The position numbers and the translations under genes were made by a program. A stretch of 50,925 nucleotides of DNA from an uncultured Acidimicrobiales bacterium (GTDB taxonomy: Bacteria > Actinomycetota > Acidimicrobiia > Acidimicrobiales > Aldehydirespiratoraceae). The notes beneath the pieces are model-generated. The model was not told the DNA's origin. It saw only the letters and a program-made list of their open reading frames with translations, and did not search any database. The stretch covers positions 1-50,925 of the forward strand of contig CAJQPN010000030.1 of the NCBI GenBank assembly GCA_905480195.1, in the 5' to 3' direction. Shown here piece by piece: positions 29,708 through 29,889 of the stretch; the first letter of the stretch is position 1, and each line of letters begins with the position of its first letter.

Positions 29708-29756
29708 GGTCTCTCCCTCACGGGTTCGCTGGCGAAATAGGTACTGAAAAGCGCAG

Positions 29757-29787
29757 AACCCCCCGAGCCACGAGGGCACGAGGGGTT
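29757..29787 (-). terminator. leuA attenuator terminator-like hairpin
   Basis: On the transcript, AACCCCUCG (29787-29779) pairs with CGGGGGGUU (29765-29757), with one U-G pair, and the inner GCC/GGC extends the stem. A UUUU run follows 7 nt downstream (29750-29747). It lies between the leader hairpin and the leuA Shine-Dalgarno, where an attenuation terminator belongs. The U-tract is shorter and further away than in a textbook terminator. Confidence 0.55.
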
Positions 29788-29789
29788 TG

Positions 29790-29814
29790 GCGAGCGCCGG
29801 TATGGGGCGCTCGC
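29790..29814 (-). promoter_or_regulatory. leader hairpin abutting the leucine leader stop codon
   Basis: A perfect 9-bp stem (GCGAGCGCC with GGCGCTCGC) with a 7-nt loop begins directly after the leader TAG and ends 2 nt before the terminator stem. A ribosome at the stop codon would cover its 5' arm, while one stalled at the Leu codons would leave it free. Confidence 0.55.
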
Positions 29815-29853
29815 CTACACGAGAAGAAGCAGGGACAAGGATGGGTGCTTCAC
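29815..29853 (-). CDS. leucine-rich leader peptide of leuA (12 aa)
   Basis: GTG-initiated frame encoding [12 protein letters not shown], ending in TAG. Five of 12 residues are Leu, four in a row (CTG CTT CTT CTC). The stop touches a stable hairpin that is followed by a terminator-like hairpin and then leuA. This is the expected order for ribosome-mediated attenuation, where uncharged tRNA-Leu stalls the ribosome and changes RNA folding. No Shine-Dalgarno is visible, but a promoter -10 sits 8 nt upstream, so the leader is probably read from a leaderless mRNA. Confidence 0.75.
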
Positions 29854-29861
29854 GGCTGTAG

Positions 29862-29889
29862 AGGCTAACGCCGGCGCAGCGATTGTCAA
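29862..29889 (-). promoter_or_regulatory. leuA leader promoter: TTGACA - 16 nt - TAGCCT
   Basis: A perfect TTGACA -35 box (29889-29884), a 16-nt spacer and a TAGCCT -10 (29867-29862) precede the leader GTG by 8 nt. It is the best -35/-10 pair in the window and starts transcription at or within a few bases of the leader start codon. Confidence 0.62.

Follow-up and report, generated by a model that had tools for sequence, protein, structure and literature searches.

It is known that leucine-rich leader peptides precede leuA in Actinobacteria. The LEU element, which was predicted in 2005 by Seliverstov et al., comprises Leu leaders before leuA and a pseudoknot, and is described there as having no terminator (PMC1262725). 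In Streptomyces lividans, leuL1 and leuL2 encode Leu-containing leaders of 12-15 amino acids before leuA and leuS, and both are reported to be transcribed leaderless. Downstream of the leuS leader there are a hairpin and a run of uridines, and the leuA leader is described as being without a typical Rho-independent terminator (PMC8079986). The ilvB-II motif of Corynebacterium consists of a uORF with branched-chain codons, a hairpin P1, and a terminator P2; the uORF covers most of P1, and pairing of the P1 loop with the right arm of P2 was proposed as the antiterminator (PMC10272879). The same paper also cites work from 2000 on an ilvBNC leader peptide that lacks a ribosome binding site. Furthermore, the ilvB leader of Corynebacterium diphtheriae is reported to begin at its own transcription start site, i.e. 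to be leaderless (PMC5784534), attenuation of ilvB1 in Mycobacterium tuberculosis is in print (PMC13236596), and cysteine attenuators on leaderless sORFs were described in mycobacteria, according to the title of Canestrari et al. (2020).

The element described here lies upstream of leuA in an uncultured Acidimicrobiales bacterium. It shares with the LEU element a Leu-run leader peptide upstream of leuA. However, the LEU element has a pseudoknot and a base stem between the Leu run and the Shine-Dalgarno (SD) region of leuA, and no terminator, whereas in the present element a hairpin (P1) is found at the stop codon, a terminator-like hairpin (P2) follows, and the Leu run and the leuA start show no co-adaptation for pairing. 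As in S. lividans, Leu leaders are found before leuA and leuS; unlike in S. lividans, leuA is preceded by the terminator-like P2, and the same chassis is common to leuS, leuB/cimA, and ilvB. The ilvB-II motif is similar in its uORF with branched-chain codons, its P1, and its terminator-like P2, but the uORF of the present element ends at the start of P1, and its P1 loop shows no co-adaptation with the right arm of P2. As far as their title indicates, the mycobacterial cysteine attenuators are similar in that a short leaderless ORF carries codons for the amino acid that is sensed, although this is a different one. The leuL, trpL, and hisL leaders of Escherichia coli also combine a leader peptide containing codons of the regulated amino acid with hairpins and a terminator. 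The stall-dependent antiterminator of leuL and trpL was detected by our procedure (hisL was not cleanly separated), but none was detected here.

Leaderless leuA leaders are therefore already known in other actinobacteria, and the combination of a leaderless mRNA with attenuation is not new. The first-pass annotation of this DNA had regarded it as unusual, which does not agree with the leaderless leaders published for S. lividans and C. diphtheriae and, by title, for the cysteine attenuators. The features that seem to differ from the known systems are the terminator-like P2, the P1 abutting the stop codon, and an antiterminator helix that was sought and not found. A full-text search of the open-access literature for terms beginning with Acidimicrobi and attenuat, together with leader peptide, returned no paper, which is weak evidence of absence. 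A search of the same literature for cimA, leader peptide, isoleucine, and terms beginning with attenuat returned titles on other subjects only.

The window, i.e. the whole 50,925-bp stretch of DNA that was analysed, belongs to a genome of 2.78 Mb in 66 contigs, and among named records the closest are MAGs that carry the label Acidimicrobiales, Acidimicrobiaceae, or Actinomycetota. The promoter, the leader ORF, P1, P2, and leuA are all on the minus strand. The leuA gene (28007..29707) encodes 2-isopropylmalate synthase (NF002991, TIGR00970); its product scores 850 bits against NF002991, the cut-off being 455, and its ATG at 29707 follows GAGGGAGAG, which agrees with the gene assignment made earlier. 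The leader ORF (29815..29853) begins with GTG at 29853 and ends with TAG at 29817-29815. It has 12 codons, five of which are Leu, and no Shine-Dalgarno sequence. Upstream of it, a -35 hexamer TTGACA (29884..29889) and a -10 hexamer TAGCCT of the TANNNT type (29862..29867) are separated by 16 nt, and the latter ends 8 nt before the GTG. These parts can be read directly from the sequence, as the first-pass annotation had done. Comparison with relatives, described below, makes it highly probable that this region is a ribosome-mediated transcription attenuator of leuA.

P1 (29789..29815, arms GGCGAGCGCC/GGCGCTCGCC) is supported by the fold and by covariation, and is a possible pause hairpin for RNA polymerase (RNAP). 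Its stem has 10 bp including the G of the TAG, or 9 bp counted after the stop codon; the hairpin annotated as touching the stop is thus confirmed. P2 (29757..29787) is GC-rich and is separated from P1 by one base. Its terminator-like character is suggested by the fold, by covariation, and by the T-rich tail of its relatives. In a fold of 29700-29862, both P1 and P2 are present in the minimum-energy structure and in the centroid; the z value was -2.65, and 3 of 200 shuffled sequences were equally stable. The tail CTGCGCTTTT (29747..29756) on the 3' side of P2 is a poor U-tract. The order is GGGGGGUU-CUGCGC-UUUU, so that the second hairpin annotated earlier is present but the UUUU is set off from it. 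Within the first 6 nt after the GC core of this hairpin, three T are found in the window and five in 7 of the 21 alignment rows of its own family, whereas five or six are found in 44 of the 70 rows of other families. P2 thus looks like a predicted terminator whose U-tract is well developed in most rows of other families and poor in the window.

Several other possibilities were considered for this region. An Rfam scan of the whole window gave no family reaching its gathering threshold. The best match below threshold in 29500-30000, to gyrA RNA, was on the opposite strand; it scored 18.7 bits (E 0.064), where the cut-off is 45, and was attributed to chance. In many other families the arms of P2 are CCUCCUG and AGGAGG (columns 63-90 of the alignment A1 described below), resembling an anti-SD/SD pair; the corresponding arms in the window (29787-29757) are CCCCUCG and GGGGGG. 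Mimicry of SD and anti-SD (AGGAGG/CCUCCU) by P2 was rejected as a general explanation, because it is absent from the window's own family. The loop of P1 (29805-29799 in the window; A1 columns 30-44) reads ACAUA or CAUAC in the leuA elements of several families. A partner segment for this loop was sought by a covariation scan and a complementarity test, and none was found.

The exact pattern TTGACA-N16-18-TANNNT occurs a single time in the 50,925-bp window, both strands counted, with 0.23 occurrences expected from 30 Markov simulations. The promoter had been called the best in the window. This holds in the sense that it is the only exact match; a scan of 29400-30200 for sigma-70 promoters and terminators called neither at the element, and TAGCCT agrees with TATAAT at just three of six positions. 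In 116 relatives, for which the start was taken as the most downstream ATG or GTG yielding at least nine codons (L198 was excluded on account of a wrong ORF), 57 matches to TTGACN have their last base 29-32 nt upstream of the leader start. In 96 of the 116, there is a hexamer [TCG]ANNNT whose end is 6-9 nt upstream of this start, compared with 9-12 in each of six other bins of equal width; the exact TANNNT does so in 63 of the 116. At least half of the members agree on a -10-like hexamer at 6-9 nt in 26 of 27 families. In one table of leaders, that of the codon-swap loci, start codons were picked using the -10 motif, which makes its -10 labels circular; the counts of 96 and 57 are free of that rule. 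SD-like motifs precede the chosen leader start in 2 of the 116. Under a lenient rule allowing any in-frame ATG or GTG, they are found in 12 of the 116 leaders, compared with 75 of the 116 in-frame leuA starts. The position of the -10-like hexamer and the rarity of SD-like motifs in relatives mean that a leaderless leader ORF is well supported by comparison, as had been proposed when translation from the very 5' end was suggested.

It should be mentioned that the leuA frame is open upstream of the annotated start. A 656-residue ORF in this frame begins at 29977 (28007-29977, minus strand) and remains open for 90 codons through the attenuator, and the frame is stop-free from leader to leuA in 82 of 116 relatives (median span 138 nt), as would be expected if the region were an N-terminal extension of leuA. 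However, the frame is broken between leader and leuA in the other 34 of the 116, which keep the element; the open frame is therefore probably not coding. In addition, P1 and P2 covary as RNA, and their lengths differ by single bases among relatives. There seems to be hardly any chance that the region is such an extension. Frameshifting or readthrough across P1 and P2 was also considered and rejected: 80, 86, and 76 of 91 elements are open in the three frames, compared with a fraction of about 0.71-0.72 in shuffled sequences, and no frame is clearly prominent.

The leuA gene was found in all nine genomes of the genus, in 51 of 51 genomes of the family (E 0.001, paralogues included), and in 173 of 298 genomes of the order (E 1e-100). 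The upstream regions compared numbered 130, of which 50 came from searches and 80 were hand-picked so as to cover different families; roughly the same number of order-level leuA matches on the list were left unfetched. Of the 130 regions, 117 contain a short ORF with a Leu run at its end. A somewhat different rule for the Leu-run ORF again gave 117 of 130, and 20 Markov-resampled sets gave 1.65 on average and at most 4. The pattern in the relatives is a Leu run, mostly one further codon, and then the stop codon. A run of codons for the product of the pathway thus lies just upstream of the structures in these 117 regions, as in classical attenuators; an alignment of the leader in relatives had been proposed as a check in the earlier annotation.

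The remaining 13 regions consist of four that could not be judged, eight with a different Leu leader and no P2, and one (L222) in which no Leu leader was seen. Among the four, L116, L136, and L148 are misplaced, the loci being apparently clipped at contig ends, and L157 is at a contig end; the genome of L136 (G095) does carry an element detected by the R1 model described below. The eight (L185, L189, L195, L204, L206, L207, L227, and L228) belong to the families f18, f27, and f28. Their leader, ending for example in LRLLGPAA, extends into a hairpin with no visible P2 and is nearer to the published LEU element. An R1 search of these eight loci gave no match.

After exclusion of L010 and L198, 115 elements were reduced to 91 non-redundant ones (similarity 0.93) from 27 families, giving the alignment A1. 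The covariance model R1 was built from these 91 sequences. It matches 46 of 51 family genomes (E 0.01), one of which (G013) matches solely via a leuB copy; 125 of 148 order genomes (E 0.05), two of which (G123 and G154) are weak and look false on inspection; and 121 of 198 class genomes (E 0.01). Both R1 and the second model R2, introduced below, were built from members of the genomes that they were used to search; the exceptions are the class genomes belonging to other orders and, in the case of R2, the window's genome. In this respect, 74 of the 121 class-level matches are from other orders, no member of which was used for R1. The window is among the 91 sequences, which means that its own R1 E value of 7.8e-16 arises partly by construction. 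Its U-tract is also poor, as described above, and it is the relatives that make the window's element more than a chance arrangement.

Both hairpins are strongly supported by covariation. In the 91 rows of A1, 93.8% of the cells of P1 and P2 have standard pairs, compared with 38-50% for slid structures. Changes on both sides were observed for 16 of the 20 pairs of P1 and P2, and cells with two-sided changes numbered 158, compared with 38.7 in shuffles. The lengths of P1 and P2 vary by single bases among relatives. In a scan of all column pairs carried out without guidance, the top ten consisted of nine pairs of P1 or P2 and the pair 74-80, which lengthens P2.

Conservation of P1 exceeds what pairing requires: its arm reads GGCGAGC in most rows. 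This might mean that P1 is itself an antiterminator RNA, through which RNAP is modified or a factor is recruited as long as P1 has not been opened by a ribosome at the stop codon, and the fact that no other helix was found is also consistent with such a role. However, nine of the ten P1 pairs change on both sides, and the P1 sequence differs before ilvB and leuB; both observations argue against sequence-specific recognition. An antiterminator RNA of this kind is considered quite improbable.

The arrangement is not restricted to the leuA elements of A1. Within the family, R1 also matches before leuS (L230) and, weakly, before leuB-ilvE-cimA operons. The leuS copy (G040:C126:89056-89153) has a strong score of 67 bits and belongs to one genome among the 51 of the family. 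At the order level, more matches were found upstream of type-1 leuA, ilvB, leuB, and cimA; of 40 such loci, L286, L291, and L293 were dropped as false. In total 42 loci were kept: 14 of type-1 leuA, nine of leuB, 17 of ilvB, and one each of cimA and leuS. The identity of the gene was assigned by NCBIfam for L229, L230, L265, L274, L275, and L295, and from the N-terminal sequence for the other loci.

The last six codons of the leader change with the gene. They contain 484 Leu, 55 Val, and 9 Ile codons before leuA of types 1 and 2; 27 Ile, 8 Val, and no Leu codons before leuB and cimA; and 32 Val, 29 Leu, and 15 Ile codons before ilvB. The leader of L274 reads IIII. Citramalate synthase (CimA) works in isoleucine synthesis. 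The Fisher p-values for codon composition are too small, the sequences being related, and the pattern does not rest on them. In the ilvB leaders (L266-L290), the Val codon GTA is found within the last five codons in 16 of 17; GTA may be rare in these GC-rich genomes.

A second covariance model, R2, was built from 28 non-leuA copies, in which the window's genome had no part. R2 finds three places in this genome, one of which is the leuA element itself (E 4.3e-5). The second, C1:2294-2391 (L337; E 1.1e-7), has the Ile-type leader MATALIISIS before a LeuB-like ORF. The third, C12:20758-20861 (L338; E 3.4e-7), has the leader VNLAASARLVVVIR with Val/Ile codons before an IlvB-like ORF. Both gene calls were made by N-terminal likeness alone. 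The leader codons thus follow the gene, with Leu before leuA and leuS, Ile before leuB and cimA, and Val, Leu, and Ile before ilvB. This natural codon swap supports ribosome stalling as the sensor. Together with the conservation, it means that attenuation of leuA through ribosome stalling, which the first-pass annotation had proposed for this lineage, is strongly supported on comparative grounds.

Textbook attenuation is a choice between two RNA structures. A classical device of the trp type, in which an antiterminator helix competes with P2 upon stalling, was considered; the remaining parts of such a device are present. In addition, the Leu run could in general form a duplex with the P2 right arm, at about -10.6 kcal/mol in the ribosome-free state. 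A covarying antiterminator is not seen, however: the top ten column pairs all belong to P1, P2, or the prolongation of P2 (74-80). No third covarying helix, such as a conserved pseudoknot would require, was found inside A1, which extends as far as P2.

Folding gave a similar result. Equilibrium folding with the ribosome footprint blocked was rejected as a test, because leuL, trpL, and hisL of E. coli give 0.94-1.00 in every state; for the 91 elements the mean P2 probability was 0.86-0.87 in every state, with 12, 12, 12, and 13 of 91 below 0.5. Two of these low rows, L137 and L140, were inspected and have misaligned P2 columns. In its place, transcripts were cut behind the P2 loop, before the right arm, and folded with the footprint blocked; the positive controls were taken from NC_000913.3. 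Pairing of the left arm was 0.67 stalled versus 0.16 at the stop codon for leuL, and 0.62 versus 0.01 for trpL. For hisL it was 0.64 in both states and 0.17 without a ribosome, so that the states were not separated. The means for the left arm of P2 in the 91 elements were 0.27 without a ribosome and 0.29 with one at the stop codon; for a ribosome stalled in the Leu run they were 0.16 (first Leu) and 0.24 (last Leu). A classical stall-specific difference of 0.3 was observed in none of the 91, whereas the opposite difference, with the left arm more paired at the stop, was observed in 16. The ilvB, leuB, and cimA copies behaved in the same way, with the classical difference in none and the opposite one in eight of the 22 folded; L230, L267, L272, L279, L287, and L288 of the 28 non-leuA copies were left out. 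Sequestration of the P2 left arm upon stalling, which leuL and trpL do show, is thus seen in 0 of 91 and 0 of 22.

Complementarity was also compared between own and family-swapped segments. An excess of own over swapped pairs was found for P1 (0.90 sd) and P2 (1.51 sd). For eight other segment pairs, including the Leu run with the P2 right arm (0.12 sd) and the P1 loop with the P2 right arm, own complementarity was no better than swapped. By covariation, cut-transcript folding, and swapped complementarity, no antiterminator helix is detectable, and the folding of alternative structures suggested by the first-pass annotation did not bring one to light. After these three tests, a partner may still lie in the stretch that runs from P2 to the final 50 nt ahead of leuA, and the Leu run may still pair with the P2 right arm when no ribosome is present. 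The trp-type device is nevertheless considered an unlikely explanation. Since no antiterminator helix was found, the sequence alone does not tell in which direction the switch works.

Translational control in the style of the LEU element was considered as well. In such a model the Leu run would pair with the Shine-Dalgarno region of leuA and a stalled ribosome would free it; Leu-run leaders before leuA are described as part of that element in Actinobacteria (PMC1262725). However, duplexes between the Leu run and the 50 nt at the start of leuA gave -8.29 for own and -8.64 for swapped segments, i.e. no co-adaptation, and the terminator-like P2 is present. Furthermore, R1 was searched against 80 sources, namely the window and 79 of 80 other loci (L094, Mycobacterium, was left out). 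At E ≤1 it matches 29 of them and none of the other 51, which include all Mycobacterium, Nocardia, Microbacterium, Glycomyces, and Actinoplanes loci given. Translational control of this type therefore has a very slight chance of being correct.

For the preferred reading, that of an attenuator worked by ribosome stalling, the geometry of the element is informative. In 73 of 91 elements the first base of P1 is also the last base of the stop codon; P1 starts directly behind the stop codon in 12, and one base further in six. The distance from the start of the last Leu codon to P1 is 8 nt in 72 of 91, and in 90 of 91 it is 8-10 nt. The gap between P1 and the GC core of P2 is 3-5 nt in 79 of 91, and 0-7 nt in all.

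It is reported that RNAP pauses at a consensus G-10 Y-1 G+1 and that the pause is stabilised by a duplex if this lies 11-12 nt ahead of the 3' end (PMC12288461). Column 70 of A1, which is unpaired in the P2 model, is Y in 85 of 91 rows; it is preceded by G in 80 and followed by G in 80, and the full G-Y-G is found in 67. This column lies 11-12 nt behind P1 in 71 of 91, and the G-Y-G is inside the left arm of P2. The position of the hairpin, the Y at -1, and the G at +1 thus agree with the consensus, whereas the G at -10 (column 60) is found in merely 22 of 91. Some G-Y-G occurs within 22 nt behind P1 in 14 of 28 non-leuA copies; at a fixed place, none was found in the ilvB, leuB, and cimA copies among these 28. 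Because of the low count at -10 and the variable place in the non-leuA copies, the reading of P1 as a pause hairpin is suggestive only. With a ribosome at the stop codon, the distance from the P-site to the pause site has a median of 42 nt.

From the promoter spacing and the conservation, transcription would start at or next to the GTG, and the ribosome would load on the 5' end without a Shine-Dalgarno site. P1 would probably act as a pause hairpin and hold RNAP while the ribosome tests the Leu codons. When Leu-tRNA is ample, the ribosome would reach the stop codon and cover the left arm of P1, so that P1 opens; RNAP would then proceed, P2 would form, and transcription would terminate. When Leu-tRNA is scarce, the ribosome would be held in the Leu run upstream of P1, P1 would stay closed, and RNAP would read through into leuA. 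If expression is on during starvation, the sign expected of biosynthesis, the closed P1 or the waiting ribosome must oppose P2. The simplest guess is a steric effect, because the gap between P1 and P2 is mostly just 3-5 nt. A translating ribosome can itself lower termination (PMC10135430), and this might be a second route to the same sign.

Some evidence is against this model. The U-tract of the window is poor and is not listed by the terminator scan, and the pairing of the P2 left arm is, if anything, opposite to the classical pattern. In addition, codon mutations in the ilvB leader of Streptomyces coelicolor are reported to be without effect, and those in its leuA leader to have an effect inconsistent with classical attenuation (PMC1262725); these results also count against attenuation of leuA as modelled here.

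The comparison points to a leader ORF, a match of its amino acids to the gene, P1, P2, and a tight geometry as established parts of the element. It is tentatively proposed, as a possibility rather than as the expected outcome, that attenuators of this kind work without an antiterminator throughout the class: P1, situated at the leader stop and 11-12 nt before a pause site in the left arm of the terminator, would be both pause signal and switch, the ribosome would load on a leaderless 5' end, and Leu, Ile, and Val would be exchanged by codon swap. Apart from a second structure, which was not detectable, this deeply conserved element possesses the components of an attenuator, and its tight geometry suggests a direct action of the ribosome on a hairpin beside the terminator. 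The natural codon-swap series on one chassis (Leu, Ile, and Val/Leu/Ile) might serve as a small, testable system in which leaderless translation is coupled with transcription. Control of branched-chain amino acid genes would thereby be annotated for the Acidimicrobiia.
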